Of a stretch of DNA of 64,000 nucleotides, positions 31,064 through 50,475 are shown in pieces (position 1 is the stretch's first letter; every line of letters starts with the position of its first letter). The stretch comes from Terriglobia bacterium (GTDB lineage: Bacteria > Acidobacteriota > Terriglobia > Terriglobales > Acidobacteriaceae). The position numbers and the translations under genes are program-made. Location: contig JAIQFH010000028.1 of the NCBI GenBank assembly GCA_020073385.1, positions 62,001-126,000 of the forward strand, written 5' to 3'. The notes under the pieces were generated by a model. That model worked only from the letters and a program-made list of their open reading frames with translations. It was not told the origin of the DNA and made no database searches.

Positions 31064-31815
31064 CTTCCGCTGACCGCTTCCCCATGTAGTCGGCTCTCCC
31101 GACCGCAGAGTAATATCAGTCAGTCTGACTTCCGGCGAGCCATCAGGTCATCCTTGCTTTGTCGGCTTGTCTGACCTTACAAGCTAGTTCAGCTTGAACC
31201 CGTCGGATCTCCCTTGTTCCCATAGAATCCTTTGGTTGCATGCTGGCGGTACGAACCCCGGAAGCATCCCTGGATACTTGCCATATCGCATCCAGTGTTC
31301 CTGCCTTCCCCATTGGGGGATTAGGTCGGCTACTTCCATCTCGATCGATTTCGGGGCTATTTTGTCGTTCACTGATATTCCGGCCTGCAACCTCCCTGTC
31401 TCCGCTTCGCAATGGCCGTTGCCGGACATCACGCAAGACTCGGTACGCGGCTGCGAGCTAGGCTTTGCCGCGGTCTCCATCTCAGGAAACTGAACTCCAT
31501 GAGCTTTCAAGGCACAACCTCCATTGACCCGGACGGGCGGGCCAGCCGGAGCGTTGGCTAGAAAAGCGTCCACCACGGAGGCACGGATCACGTCCCAAGC
31601 CCCACTCAAGCCAAAACCGGGCTTGAGTGGGCCAACGGCCTAGCGAACACCCGCCCGCCACCCGCAGTTGATACCAAGTAGGGATCCTTCGACTGCGGGT
31701 GAGCTTCGCTTTGCTCAGCTCACTCCTCGCTCAGGATGACAAACGGTTAGGAGTGTCGGCTGAATAACCGGCTTGGGTGGGCCACCCGGCTTCCTTAACG
31801 TTTGCCGCTGGGTCT
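31064..31815. other. Remnant intron/intergenic region
   Basis: The part next to the broken RT (about 31064-31500) sits where group II intron RNA domains I-IV would lie, but no 5' boundary (GUGYG) was found. The rest holds hairpin 31601-31631 and a TCATCCTGAGC-type repeat (about 31683-31740). An open frame across 31184-31609 looks like chance reading of intron RNA. Confidence 0.45.
31601..31631. repeat. 12-bp inverted repeat (CCCACTCAAGCC)
   Basis: CCCACTCAAGCC, loop AAAACCG, GGCTTGAGTGGG. A related word, GGCTTGGGTGGG, follows near 31771. Confidence 0.65.
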
Positions 31816-41533: not shown

Positions 41534-42940
41534 TCAGGAAACCTGGCCACGTCGCCCTTTTGTGTGCTCCAGAATTCGAAACAGCAGCAGCCAGCGCTTC
41601 ACGTTTGTGGTCATCAGGAAGTTTTCCTTCACGTGCTCGCGCCCGCTCGACCCAATGCTGCGTGCAAATTCCGGATGCGTCAGCAGATATCGGATCTGAA
41701 AAGCGCATCCCTCAACCGAGTGCACCAGCACGCCCGTGAGCTTGTGAATAATCTGATTCGGAATGCCTCCGACTGCACCCGCAATGGTCGGCTTGCCTTT
41801 CCATAATGCCTCCGTCACCGTCAGCCCGAATCCCTCTTTCAGCGATTTCTGCACGATGATGGTCGACGCTCTTTGGATCGCGTTGATCTGCACCGCGCAC
41901 CAGGGCGGGAGATCCAGAATGATAATGTCAGGATCGTTCCCCGCCGCCTCTTTCACTTCCTGTAGTACGGCCGCACCTTCGGGATCGTCACTCGCCCCGC
42001 CGCCGGCTAACACCAACTGGCAATCGACATATTTCTTCGCGAGCTTATAGGCCTGCACCACGCCGACCGGATCTTTGAGCCGGTCAAAACGCGACACCTG
42101 CGTCACGATGGGCCGGGAGCGGTCGATGCCAAACTCGTCACAGATCTCCTGCACCTGCGAGTCGGGCAGTTCCTTGTTCTTCTCCGATAAGGGATCAATA
42201 CACGGATAAAAGAGATATTGCGGAATGGAGAGTTGCTGCGTAAACGATTGCGAAGAAAAAATCGCGGCGTCATATTGTTCTACAAAAGGTCTTAGGAACT
42301 GCCACACTTCGGCATTAGGATTCGATAAATCAATATGGCATCGCCACACCCAGTGAGCTGGCGTTTGGGGGCGTGAGAGAACCAGGCCGGCGGGCTGCGG
42401 GTCGTGAATCACTACTATATCTTCGCCAAACTGCATGCGGCGCCGGTTTTGCTCGTTGTACATCAGAAAAATATCTTTGGCAGCCTGCGTCAATTGATAC
42501 GGCGCTCCGTGCAGCGCATTATGAAATGCCTTCGTGACTTCGAAAAAATCGTTTCCGCCCGTGATCACGTCCCAATGCGTGGGAACCTCCAGTTCCGACA
42601 GCAGCGGCACCAGCCGGTTCAGCATTTCGGCGACGCCTCCGCCCACGGCGGTGGAGTTAATCATCTTGATCGTCTTCCCCTTGAGCTCCTTCGCCAGATA
42701 CCGCAGCGTATCCAACTGGCTCTGGCCGACAATCGCTTTGTAGTCGTCCAAATGGGGCGGCGGAGGCGGCGCTGGCGGCGTGAGCACGCTCGCTGGTAGC
42801 GGCCGCGCGCTTCTCCGGTCGCTGGCCCGCCGCGGAAGATGGGGTGATCGCCGTTCCACCTCGCGACCGGCGGCTTCGGCGGGCGCCGGGGTATCGACGG
42901 TGGAACTTGCAGAAATGGTCTGCGGATCGTCAGAACTCAT
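41534..42940 (-). CDS. TreT-like trehalose glycosyltransferring synthase (GT4)
   Basis: 468 residues from ATG MSSDDPQTIS. A 70-residue Pro/Arg-rich leader precedes the GT4 fold. TreT-like landmarks: MINSTAVGGGVAEMLNRLVP, VVIHDPQPAGLV, WRCHIDLSNPN, TQVSRFDRLKDPVGV, and the nucleotide-sugar C-terminal motif VQKSLKEGFGLTVTEALWKG. TreT joins an NDP-glucose and glucose into trehalose. In an operon after DUF5752 (20-bp gap) and a GT20 enzyme, so two trehalose routes are combined. Confidence 0.85.
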   Translation of the reverse strand: MSSDDPQTISASSTVDTPAPAEAAGREVERRSPHLPRRASDRRSARPLPASVLTPPAPPPPPHLDDYKAIVGQSQLDTLRYLAKELKGKTIKMINSTAVGGGVAEMLNRLVPLLSELEVPTHWDVITGGNDFFEVTKAFHNALHGAPYQLTQAAKDIFLMYNEQNRRRMQFGEDIVVIHDPQPAGLVLSRPQTPAHWVWRCHIDLSNPNAEVWQFLRPFVEQYDAAIFSSQSFTQQLSIPQYLFYPCIDPLSEKNKELPDSQVQEICDEFGIDRSRPIVTQVSRFDRLKDPVGVVQAYKLAKKYVDCQLVLAGGGASDDPEGAAVLQEVKEAAGNDPDIIILDLPPWCAVQINAIQRASTIIVQKSLKEGFGLTVTEALWKGKPTIAGAVGGIPNQIIHKLTGVLVHSVEGCAFQIRYLLTHPEFARSIGSSGREHVKENFLMTTNVKRWLLLFRILEHTKGRRGQVS

Positions 42941-42960
42941 TCTCTTCTCGGTCCTAATTC

Positions 42961-43650
42961 CTAATTCATGGCTTGGGAGACGATGCGTGCGATCTGACGC
43001 CGCACACCCTCCATCGTGTTCGTGTAAATGTCGATGCGCTCGATGGCATCCGCTGCTTCCGCCAGTCCCACTTCTACTTCCAGCCATTGTGAGAAATCGT
43101 TTGACATGCGACGCAGACGTAGTCGCGCCTCAATGAAGTGATGATGGATGGAATGTACGCTCACTTGATTGAGGCCATCGAGAAAGGCTTTAAGCGTATC
43201 CGCACAAAAAGCTGTGGGCAGTACGACGATGTCCGCGGAGCAGAAATAGAATGGTTCATGCGCTGGACGCGAGCCGCTCATCTTGTGCGATTCCAGGAAT
43301 TCGTCCAGAATCTCCACCATCCGCCGTCGCAGTCCCTCAATTGCCGTAAATTCTCGGACATCCACGCTCGCCAATTGCTCCGCCAGCGCCGGTTCATTGC
43401 AGGCAAAGAGGCTCCAATGAGCGAAGTCGTTCGAGAAGCCCTGTCGAATGAAATGATGTTCCTGCAGCGTCCGGAACGTGTGCTGAAAAATCGAGTCATC
43501 GGGAACCGTCTGCAAGGCTTCGAGCAGTTCCAAAAGATTACTCGCCCTCTGCCTGCCGATCCGTAACAGATGTTCCGAGGTATTGAAGTAAAACGGCTTC
43601 TGCGGTTTGCGTAGAACCGGCTTCTCCGCGATGTTCTCAGCGGTATCCAT
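42961..43650 (-). CDS. DUF5752 family protein
   Basis: 229 residues. The pattern FYFNTSEHLLRIGRQRASNL, a middle HHFIRQGFSNDFAHWS and a second half FYFCSADIVVLPTAFCADTL ... HHHFIEARLRLRRMSNDFSQW shows an internal repeat of two similar halves. This corresponds to DUF5752, known from trehalose-related gene clusters but of unknown activity. Position between the GT20 fusion and TreT suggests an accessory role in trehalose metabolism. No signal peptide. Confidence 0.78.
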   Translation of the reverse strand: MDTAENIAEKPVLRKPQKPFYFNTSEHLLRIGRQRASNLLELLEALQTVPDDSIFQHTFRTLQEHHFIRQGFSNDFAHWSLFACNEPALAEQLASVDVREFTAIEGLRRRMVEILDEFLESHKMSGSRPAHEPFYFCSADIVVLPTAFCADTLKAFLDGLNQVSVHSIHHHFIEARLRLRRMSNDFSQWLEVEVGLAEAADAIERIDIYTNTMEGVRRQIARIVSQAMN

Positions 43651-43707: not shown

Positions 43708-45990
43708 TTATCCGACCGTTGTACTCGCCCGAAACTGACCATCCCCCGCGGAATCCAAACGTACGTCGCAAACTTCCCCAATCAAACTCGCGGCCCACCG
43801 GTAAACATTCTGTTCCCGAATGGTCTTTCGCATTCTCTGCATGCGCTGTTGCTTCTCCTCCGCGTTCATCTCCAGCGCCGTCCGGATCGCCTCGGCCGTC
43901 TGGTCGATGTCGTAGGGATTCACCTGCAGCGCATCACGCAATTCCCGCGCCGCTCCCGTAAAGCAACTCAAGATCAGCACTCCCCGCTCATCGTCGCGGG
44001 TGGCCACAAATTCCTTGGCCACAAGATTCATGCCGTCATGCAGCGAAGTCACCAGACAAAGATCGGCGGCCCGATAGTAAGGCGCGATCTCCTGATGGCT
44101 GTGTTGCCGCTCGAGCAGAACGATCGGCTTCCATTGCTCCGAGCGAAATCTCCAGTTGATTCGCTCCGCCTCGGCTTCCACCTCGGCTTGCAGATCGTGA
44201 TAGCGCTTGATGTGCGTCCGGCTCGGCGCTCCGATCTGAACAAACGTAAACACGCCCTGGTAGCGTGGATATTTCTCCAGGAACCGCTCGATCGCCAGGA
44301 ATCTCTCCAGAATCCCCTTGGTGTAATCCAGCCGGTCCACACCCACTCCCATCACCGCAGCTCGAACCCCAAGACTCTTCAGCAGCGACCCCCTCTCCTC
44401 ATAGGCTGACTCCCGCAGTACCTTGGTCTGCGGATCAGCTGAATTCACACTGATGGGAAACGGGCGCACGGTCGTGCCGTGGTCGAGGCGTTGCACGGTC
44501 GAATGATCCCAGTCGATCCGCGACTCCATAATTCGATCGACAGTTTGCAGAAAATTCGAGCAGTGCGACTGAATATGGAACCCAATGAGGTCTGCGCCCA
44601 ACAAACCATCAATCAGTTCCTTCTGCCACGGACATATTCCGAACGCCTCAGGATTCGGCCACGGAATGTGCCAGAAAATCGCCAACCGCGCGTCGGGTCT
44701 GCGCTCTTTGATCATTCTCGGCAGCAGCGCAAAGTGATAATCCTGCACCAGCACTACCGGATTGGCGACGCCTTCCATTTCCTCCAGCAGAGCCTTGGCG
44801 AATTTCTGGTTCACTTCCTGATAGTGATTCCAGTCGCTGGCGCGAAACAGCGGACGCGTGTGCGCAATGTGGCAGAGCGGCCAAAGCCCCTCGTTGGCGA
44901 ACCCGTAGTAGTAGCCTTCCTCTTCTTCCTTCGACAACCACACTCGGCGCAACGTATAGTGCGGATCGTCCGGCGGAACCAGCAGTCGATCGTGCACGTC
45001 CACCGTTTCCGTATCGGCATCTCCCGACCCATGTGCGACCCAGGTGCCGCCACATGCACGCAGCACCGGCTCAAGGGCGGTCACGAGTCCACTTGCGGGA
45101 ACATTGACCTCGATCGATTTCCCTTTCTGCACGTGCGTATAAGGTTCTCGATTCGAGATCACAAACAGCCGGCCATCCGCCAGGCGCGAGCGGACATGCA
45201 CCGCAAGCCGGTCCGCCGTCCAGATCGATTCCCCGCTATCGCGCAGTCGAGCTTCGCGTTCCGCGGCCGTCCGGGCCGTGTTCAGGCTTTCGGCCATGGT
45301 CGCGACTTCCCGCGCCAAAGGACGGAACAGTTCCATGTCTACCGGCTTGATGCGCGCCGAAACGGCGCGCCCTGTCCGCAGCGCCTTGATCCAGTTGGCA
45401 GTCCGCGCGATCGGCCCCGCGATGCTCCAGCGCACGATCAATAGGGTAATCAGGACGATCAGCACGACGTGGATCAGCGCGCTCAGAAAAGTCTCGCGCC
45501 AGATCCGCATGCTTTCCGCCCGGATATACCCTGAGTCATGAACAATCGCCAGGCTGCCCACCAGATCGTCGCCGTTGTGCAACGGCAACGCATAAATGTG
45601 GATGGAAGCAATCCCCATCCGCAGGAACGCCGCGGTATCGTGATTCTGCTTCAGCGCCTCCAGCACGATCGGCGGAGCGCTCTCCATCAGCGGCTCCAGG
45701 TTCGTCGTGACAGCGATCGGATGGCCTTGCGGATCATAAACAGCGAGTCCGGCCAGATGCTCCCGGTTCGCGAATTGCTGAACTGTTCGCTTCAATCTGG
45801 TCTGCGCATCCCTCTCCAGATCTCGCTCCACATTCCCTGCCAGACTCTCTCCCAGCACCTCGGCCCGCCGTTCCAGGTCTTTGCGCATGCTCCTGTTTTG
45901 CATCAGGACCTGGTAGTAAGAAGTACATAGGGACACGAGGGTAATGCCGACGATAAGCGAGATGATGAGTCTGGCGCTGAGGAGTCTCAT
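43708..45990 (-). CDS. Membrane receptor-HAMP-trehalose-6-phosphate synthase (GT20) fusion
   Basis: 760 residues. TM helix 8-27, an extracytoplasmic sensor domain of about 135 residues (30-166, PAS/Cache-like: [16 protein letters not shown]), TM helix 168-188 and a HAMP-like linker (187-240: [18 protein letters not shown]). A GT20 domain of about 274-735 follows. GT20 residues are intact: [50 protein letters not shown] and [13 protein letters not shown]. So a catalytic domain replaces the usual kinase or cyclase output of a receptor. First gene of the trehalose operon. A separate trehalose-6-phosphate phosphatase is not in the window. Confidence 0.9.
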
Positions 45991-49341: not shown

Positions 49342-50475
49342 GTGCCCCTCGACAGCCTGGAATTCCGCACATCCCTACAAAAGCTGCTCGTGGCTTTGAT
49401 GTTGATCCTTGTGCCCCTAACCGTCTTCGGATTCTACGTGGCGCTGCAAGGAGATACCCACATTCGACAAGCGGCCGGCGAAAGCGTTCGCTCGCTCACT
49501 CTCACCGCCGCTGACTCTGCCTCCCAATTCATTTCTGCGTCTGTCAAGGACGTCAGCATGATCGCCAATCAACCCGGCCCCGTGCAGGCGGTCACCGCGG
49601 CCAACCACCAGTATGACAATCTCCCGGAAGATGCCGTCAGCGCGAAGATCGCAGCCATTGACCAGAGCTGGGAGACTCCGCAGGCAGATGCCTTGTCCGC
49701 CAACATTCTCACCTCGGACCTGGCCCGCCACTTGCGCCGCCTGCGCGAACTCAATCCCACACTGCTGAAGATCACAATCGCCGATGTTAGCGGCGCGATC
49801 GTGGCCGCCACCGACCGGCCCGCGCACTACACATTGAATGACCCCGACCTCTGGCGCGAACTTTCCGCCCGCGGACCCGGCACCATCCGGATTTCAGATT
49901 TGCGCTATGACGACCAGAACCGGCTCTATTACCTGAGCATCGGTTATCCCATTCAGCAGGAGGGGACCGGACGTTTCATCGGCGTGGTTACCGCGACGGT
50001 GAATCTGTCACCTCTGTTCGAGCAATTGAACCGACACCGGATCGGGCGCACTGGCCGGCTGTTTCTAGTGCGCGAGGACGGCACCGTCATAGAGGCTCCT
50101 GGCGTCACCCCTTCCATGAAAATCCGATCCGAGGAATACGTGGCCATTCACGACGCCCTGGGCAGTCTGCGCGGCCGCCAAACCGGCTATTTGTTTGCCA
50201 CTTTGTCCAATGGCCAGTCCTACCTCATCGGTTTTGCCGATGCCGGATTGAAGGACGCGTACCCGAACTTGCCTTGGACGGTGCTGGCCAGCCAGGAAGC
50301 CAGAGAGGTAACCGGCCCGGTTCGCAACATGATCGCTTTTGCTCTGCTCGTGATGATTCTTGCGCTGCTCATGTTGTCGCTTCTCGCTGCCTATGTCGTC
50401 CTGCACACGAAACAGCGCCTGGAAGATATCGAAACTCCTCTGGAGGAAGACAAAGAACATCCCGTGGCGGCTTGA
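49342..50475 (+). CDS. Orphan dCache membrane sensor without output domain
   Basis: 377 residues; GTG start with GGAGGAGG upstream. TM helix (about 15-36), a 270-residue periplasmic region with dCache features (LLKITIADVSGAIVAATD, LYYLSIGYPI, GVVTATVNLSPLFEQLN, GRLFLVREDGTVIEAPG), a second TM helix (about 332-354) and only 23 cytoplasmic residues, rich in Glu/Asp. Receptors of this fold normally end in a kinase, cyclase or methyl-accepting domain; none is present or adjacent. It may signal through a partner or simply bind ligand. Confidence 0.75.
   Translation: MPLDSLEFRTSLQKLLVALMLILVPLTVFGFYVALQGDTHIRQAAGESVRSLTLTAADSASQFISASVKDVSMIANQPGPVQAVTAANHQYDNLPEDAVSAKIAAIDQSWETPQADALSANILTSDLARHLRRLRELNPTLLKITIADVSGAIVAATDRPAHYTLNDPDLWRELSARGPGTIRISDLRYDDQNRLYYLSIGYPIQQEGTGRFIGVVTATVNLSPLFEQLNRHRIGRTGRLFLVREDGTVIEAPGVTPSMKIRSEEYVAIHDALGSLRGRQTGYLFATLSNGQSYLIGFADAGLKDAYPNLPWTVLASQEAREVTGPVRNMIAFALLVMILALLMLSLLAAYVVLHTKQRLEDIETPLEEDKEHPVAA

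Follow-up and report, generated by a model that had tools for sequence, protein, structure and literature searches.

A single open reading frame fills positions 43708-45990 of the window, the whole 64,000-nucleotide stretch of Terriglobia DNA analysed here. It lies on the minus strand (45990..43708) and its 760-residue product is probably a one-component receptor that spans the membrane and has the synthesis of trehalose-6-phosphate (T6P) as its output. Residues 1-255 form a receptor module composed of a transmembrane helix (TM1), a single-Cache domain, a second transmembrane helix (TM2) and a HAMP-like linker, which is followed by a GT20 glycosyltransferase domain of the trehalose-6-phosphate synthase (TPS) type. 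The receptor module is of a known kind (Cache-HAMP); what is new is its metabolic glycosyltransferase output.

According to the proposed mechanism, a chemical or physical cue would be received by the extracytoplasmic single-Cache domain and carried to the cytoplasm by the two TM helices and the HAMP-like linker. A junction helix with a WTxxRL motif would then hand the signal to the GT20 domain, such that the rate of T6P synthesis from NDP-glucose and glucose-6-phosphate (G6P) changes at the membrane. Where a gene for an OtsB-like phosphatase adjoins, as in many relatives, its product would dephosphorylate the T6P; in the window genome, which contains no OtsB-like gene, TreT and DUF5752 would remain. 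Direct control of the T6P output by a ligand or by stress is the best inference from the sequence. We infer, besides the nature of the cue and of the product, that the cue controls catalysis and that the protein forms a dimer or a higher oligomer; OtsA crystallizes as a tetramer, and receptors with HAMP domains are dimeric.

Gene and domain order

The minus strand of the gene is an addition to the initial annotation, which named no strand. The two TM helices that the latter had placed in front of the GT20 domain coincide with hydropathy peaks at residues 3-21 and 168-186. The approximately 135 residues between them (about 30-164) agree with the extracytoplasmic domain of 135 residues that it had described. 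An AlphaFold2 model of the monomer, computed from a 56-row alignment, reached a mean pLDDT of 86.8 over the full length, and a second model, of residues 1-272, one of 86.7. The full-length model consists of a helix (2-59), strands and a helix (79-152), a helix (154-206), a 13-residue connector, two further helices (220-251 and 259-270) and the GT20 domain. Fusion by chance or by an assembly error was considered and rejected, since many genomes of the genus, the class and other phyla preserve this architecture in a single frame. Rfam, promoter and terminator scans of the window revealed nothing that bears on the TPS gene (one group II intron and one tRNA were recorded). The coordinates of the features are listed in Table 1.

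Table 1. Positions in the window of the putative receptor-type synthase, its predicted parts and its neighbours
Feature	Position	Strand	Basis
Putative membrane receptor-type trehalose-6-phosphate synthase	43708..45990	-	ORF, Pfam, relatives, AlphaFold2
TM1, approx. residues 3-28	45907..45984	-	Hydropathy peak 3-21; AlphaFold2 helix 2-59
Predicted extracytoplasmic single-Cache (PAS-like) sensor domain, approx. residues 30-164	45499..45903	-	AlphaFold2 model 1-272; Foldseek and VIA matches to WalK, DctB, CitA and DcuS sensors
TM2, approx. residues 165-187	45430..45498	-	Hydropathy peak 168-186; unbroken helix 154-206
HAMP-like linker, approx. residues 188-240 (helix, 13-residue connector, helix)	45271..45429	-	hhalign comparison with 28 HAMPs from this genome; alignment to the Pfam-recognized HAMP of histidine kinases
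WTxxRL helix, residues 257-270, receptor/enzyme junction	45181..45222	-	Trp257 and Leu262 conserved in all 56 rows
GT20 domain, predicted trehalose-6-phosphate synthase, residues 274-739	43774..45171	-	Pfam, Foldseek, OtsA residues
DUF5752 protein	42961..43650	-	57 bp downstream of TPS; PF19027, E 1.9e-60; recurrent neighbour
TreT-like GT4 trehalose synthase	41534..43087 (longest ORF; start likely at about 42940, inferred)	-	PF21269, E 3.1e-55; recurrent neighbour

Kinship of the receptor half with histidine kinases

As judged from sequence, the front half of the TPS is a receptor module of the histidine-kinase type joined to another output, because a profile of this half retrieves colinear, HAMP-bearing kinases. 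The profile (A3; residues 1-272, 60 rows, all of them fused to GT20) was searched in 396 Acidobacteriota genomes, with scoring limited to six candidates in each; in some of its rows the receptor piece extends past the actual domain boundary or stops before it. The search returned 88 rows, which by visual comparison divided into 41 (from 37 genomes) directly beside a GT20 match and 47 that were not. The TPS matches are not independent because the profile includes proteins of the same phylum; among the 41 GT20-adjacent rows, the frame of one (G134) is broken and the GT20 match of another (G259) is partial. Of the 47 remaining matches, twelve, mostly top-ranked ones, were read and ten were scanned; all ten contained HAMP, HisKA and HATPase_c at or above the Pfam cut-offs. 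The best of the matches not adjacent to GT20, the kinase L184, scored E 1.3e-38 over profile positions 1-251. The kinases are colinear with the TPS module from the first residue and TM1 through a HAMP domain confirmed by Pfam; the identity between them and the receptor half of the window protein is only 18-22%. A BLASTP comparison of single sequences, the TPS L123 and the kinase L193, gave E 6e-11 over residues 1-239. A kinase of the window genome itself (L190; 1707-3611, plus strand), whose HAMP is recognized by Pfam, matches the receptor profile with E 5.7e-11. NCBIfam WalK matched two of five relatives scanned, at residues 2-245 (E 8.1e-8) and 2-241 (E 7.5e-7), in both cases far under the cut-off. 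HisKA and HATPase_c were absent from the Pfam matches of the window protein at E<=10. As a separate observation, the extracytoplasmic part of L190 carries two CxxCH motifs, suggestive of a haem-c sensor.

The HAMP-like linker of the initial annotation was upheld by a profile comparison and by the alignment with the HAMP-bearing kinases, but not by Pfam HAMP, which did not match the window protein at E<=10 and, among 56 family members, recognized only two at E<=1, with a best value of 2.1e-4. Pfam HAMP as proof of the linker was accordingly abandoned in favor of the other two approaches. When a 20-row query alignment was compared by hhalign with a profile built from 28 of the 29 HAMPs of the window genome (L157, whose extracted sequence ran into a stop, was left out), residues 185-255 gave a probability of 76.8% (E 2.1e-5) and residues 160-255 one of 66.9%; 40 column shuffles did not exceed 3.4% and four other regions 0.6%. 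Of the HAMP coiled coil on which the earlier reading depended, the models, which are of monomers, contain the two HAMP-like helices.

The distance between TM2 and the GT20 domain was counted on the 56-row alignment, made up of 29 rows of clade A and 27 of clade B. It amounts to 85-88 residues in 27 of the 29 clade A rows and to 80 and 83 in the other two, despite a variation from 258 to 287 in the number of residues that precede GT20 in this clade. Near-constant spacing behind a variable part is as expected of a signal-transmitting linker. The HAMP proline is kept in 26 of the 29 clade A rows. The linker of clade B is about nine residues shorter (median 77 vs 86; 65-69 in four rows), and no residue aligns there with the HAMP proline. 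Trp257 is present in all 56 rows. Several soluble relatives (L106, L112, L125) begin at the WTxxRL helix, and in others its Trp is absent; these observations suggest the site at which the fusion occurred.

The sensor domain

Direct sequence searches of the PDB were weak. The single sensor sequence yielded a chance match alone (E 0.27), and a sensor profile yielded eight matches at E<=1 (best 0.0055), five of which were sensor domains of histidine kinases or chemoreceptors. A fold search was therefore needed. In a VIA search, the model of residues 1-272 matched the extracellular domain of WalK with Z 15.4-15.5 and an rmsd of 2.3-2.6 over 131-136 residues, and the sensors of KinD, DctB and CitA with Z 14-15. 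An integrative, partly predicted model of full-length WalK was matched with Z 15.8 and an rmsd of 6.0 over 269 residues. The modeled sensor is thus of the Cache/PAS-like fold, such that the sensor fold presupposed by the initial annotation is present in the monomer models; the shared fold reveals no ligand. No ligand-binding motif is recognizable in the periplasmic domain of the TPS family, and this domain diverges between phyla, with a mean pairwise identity of 24%.

Distribution of the membrane-type synthases

Relatives were taken from an alignment scan of genome contigs, from which the best 80 of 592 were used. A search for GT20 proteins with an N-terminal TM/HAMP architecture, as the initial annotation had recommended, identified two or more TMs in front of GT20 in 88 of 132 classed loci (a total that counts the window locus a single time and includes two yardsticks from E. 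coli as well as two copies). The long TPS proteins it had surmised in related bacteria do occur there and extend well beyond, into about 13 phyla. A GT20 tree of 116 rows, computed by a quick method with one distant outgroup, unites 67 membrane-type proteins and eight reduced variants in a single clade of 75 rows (SH-aLRT 99) that includes no soluble protein. The approximately 13 phyla were counted from the record titles of this clade and include Acidobacteriota, Elusimicrobiota, Omnitrophota, Gemmatimonadota, Nitrospirota, Planctomycetota, Pseudomonadota, Myxococcota, Bdellovibrionota and Thermodesulfobacteriota; because most of the records are MAGs, individual phylum assignments may be in error. 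From the genus, the tree contained the window copy, L040, L041 and a selection of six from the 29 loci L003-L031; six of ten Na+/H+ exchanger-GT20 fusions were also included. Left out were L057 (broken frame), L001, L052, L056, L060 and rows, such as L128, that were X-rich or had a short domain. The labels were assigned manually, and L172 and L174, labeled memA, were placed among memB, so that counts of memA/memB changes are inflated. Extra domains in the long GT20 frames L047, L105, L110, L131, L172 and L174 (in the last two upstream of TM1) were dismissed, as these frames from GC-rich genomes look over-extended; Pfam found no further domain in L047, L110, L131 and L174. The N-terminal extension of L177 and L178 (279) contains no TM. 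In a plasmid collection, 359 records matched, none of which covered 80% of the query.

The N-terminal half could instead be a passive anchor or scaffold by which T6P synthesis is kept at the membrane, near OtsB, TreT, a transporter or the envelope, its receptor ancestry being a relic. Such a role is also viable in view of the relatives that have lost the sensor and kept one or two TMs together with the enzyme (L039, L084, L099, L103, L108, L111 and L114, of which L108, L111 and L114 are from Mesorhizobium). L039 (5222-7141, plus strand), from the class of the window organism, is an example: its two TMs are 14 residues apart and are followed by the HAMP-like linker and GT20, and the periplasmic domain is missing. 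The separately evolved membrane tie of the Na+/H+ exchanger-GT20 fusions and the shortened linker of clade B point in the same direction. However, in the membrane clade two TMs at sensor spacing are retained by 67 of 75 rows, across about 13 phyla, and the distance between TM2 and GT20 is nearly constant in clade A, whereas more erosion and drift would be expected if the module were an anchor alone. A merely anchoring function is rather unlikely, and a receptor that governs the enzyme is the preferred interpretation.

Neighboring genes and the trehalose pathway

The gene order in the window is TPS-DUF5752-TreT. The TreT-like protein scored 378.6 bits with NF041139, under the cut-off of 775. 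A neighborhood with DUF5752 and TreT is shared by loci of Elusimicrobiota, Omnitrophota and Rokuibacteriota (L058, L068-L070, L094). Among loci with enough flanking sequence, an OtsB-like gene on the same strand within 1000 bp downstream was found in 34 of 49 from outside the genus; in the genus itself it was found in 11 of 30. The count omitted the copies L001, L054 and L056 (the last two regarded as copies because their contigs are of equal length) and took L055, which has no OtsB, as outside the genus though it is nested among genus rows in the tree. OtsB phosphatase (PF02358) had no match in 26 of 45 genomes of the genus, or 11 of the 20 of good quality, among them the window genome, which is 100% complete. 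The TPS was present in all eight of these 11 PF02358-less good-quality genomes that were searched, in one of them as two fragments.

TreT can make trehalose without T6P. In the lineage of the window, T6P might then serve as a second messenger made by the receptor, comparable to the product of a receptor cyclase, and bulk trehalose would come from TreT. The retention of the TPS in genomes that lack PF02358, the absence of a phosphotrehalase above its cut-off and the adjoining TreT gene, with the activity known of its family, are consistent with this proposal. Against it stand the possible replacement of OtsB by another HAD phosphatase, the lack of a known T6P receptor here and the OtsB-like gene as the usual neighbor elsewhere; outside the genus, T6P is therefore probably an intermediate. 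On balance a messenger role is doubtful, and a receptor-controlled synthase remains the preferred explanation. T6P is a signal in plants, and in lineages without OtsB it might be one in bacteria as well.

In several phyla, DUF5752 is encoded between TreT on one side and TPS, or OtsB, on the other; it is a candidate regulator or partner. No mention of it was found in the open-access PMC literature.

The GT20 domain

Pfam GT20 (PF00982) matches residues 274-739 with E 6.8e-125 and 417.9 bits, compared with a curated cut-off of 32.5, and this is the sole GT20 match in the complete window genome of 8.23 Mb. In Foldseek searches, the model fitted solved TPS structures (5jio, E 1.2e-38, TMt 0.89). 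Seventeen OtsA positions that we take to be catalytic or substrate-binding were compared, and 15 are identical: R281, G301, Y361, W370, D417, H441, R553, K558, R591, D652, M654, N655, L656, V657 and E660. In a set of 87 further membrane-type proteins, near-copies from the genus included, thirteen of these are kept throughout and two in 86. Of the remaining two positions, one proved misnumbered and the other, a less certain site, is a His in OtsA and Gln629 here. Next to the misnumbered position, the tryptophan of the OtsA GWxG motif (Trp42, counting Met as 1), presumably near the acceptor site, is replaced by His320 in the window protein and by His in 83 of the 87 membrane-type proteins. The earlier statement that all main substrate residues are present is thus almost correct. 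NCBIfam OtsA (TIGR02400) gave 442.8 bits, under its cut-off of 564.85, and NCBIfam glucosylglycerol-phosphate synthase 310.7 bits, under its cut-off of 569. TPS is the best label for the domain, its acceptor being predicted only.

The use of another acceptor, to yield a different phosphorylated glucoside, could be supposed from the His in place of the GWxG Trp and from the score under the OtsA cut-off, but is very improbable given that the OtsA score exceeds that for glucosylglycerol-phosphate synthase, that Arg281, Tyr361, Trp370 and Arg591, which we take to be the G6P ligands, are kept and that an OtsB-like gene adjoins in many loci.

Relation to known systems

Where a transmembrane receptor has an enzyme as its output, this is generally a signaling enzyme such as a kinase, cyclase, phosphodiesterase or phosphatase. 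The window protein shares with sensor histidine kinases (WalK and the acidobacterial L184-L193) a receptor module that is colinear from TM1 to HAMP and a predicted fold that resembles the WalK sensor, but its output is a GT20 glycosyltransferase instead of HisKA/HATPase_c. Receptors of the DgcN/YfiN and BarA types showed weak matches over residues 16-246 and 4-238 (E 4e-5 and 1.3e-4, far under the cut-offs); unlike the window protein, they have signaling enzymes as outputs, a diguanylate cyclase and a kinase. With OtsA-type TPS (PDB 1gz5, 5jij) the protein has in common the fold, most catalytic residues and, in many relatives, the OtsB-like neighbor, and it differs from OtsA in the membrane receptor module of approximately 255 residues in front, in the His at the GWxG Trp and in a score below the NCBIfam OtsA cut-off.

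The TPS activity of Thermoproteus tenax TPSP requires a co-encoded glycosyltransferase (GT), and the TPSP-GT-MSC operon also contains a putative mechanosensitive channel (PMC3634074). TPSP is a precedent for a regulated prokaryotic TPS. The two systems are alike in that a TPS is encoded with a second glycosyltransferase and tied to a membrane protein; the activating GT and the putative channel of T. tenax are separate proteins (PMC3634074), whereas the receptor of the window is fused to the enzyme.

A search of the open-access PMC literature found no paper that seemed to describe a protein of this type. The coupling of a receptor module to a biosynthetic glycosyltransferase, observed in about 13 phyla, would allow external conditions to act directly on the synthesis of an osmolyte or of T6P, with no need for gene expression. 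The production of a stress-protecting or signaling sugar may thus respond directly to an outside signal, and, if so, soil bacteria could adjust trehalose to their surroundings within seconds.

Other features of the window and related genomes

The window contains two further features of note. On the plus strand, positions 49342-50475 encode a dCache_1 protein of 377 amino acids in which no output domain was found after the C-terminal hydrophobic region. On the minus strand, positions 31245-31478 match a group II intron domain (RF02005, 130 bits). Elsewhere in the window genome (G000:C114:127934-130849), one open frame of 2127 amino acids contains 11 HAMP repeats (L142, L143, L145, L149-L153, L155, L160, L161).

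In other Acidobacteriota, a Na+/H+ exchanger (PF00999) and GT20 are fused in single frames (L163-L171 and L173; for example L166:4792-7551:+), which comprise about 910-920 amino acids in the shortest cases. The exchanger domain was confirmed by Pfam in L166, L168, L170, L171 and L173 and identified by the TM pattern in the other five. The six fusions in the tree form a separate clade, and these proteins represent a second, separate membrane tie of trehalose-phosphate synthesis, perhaps linked to salt stress.
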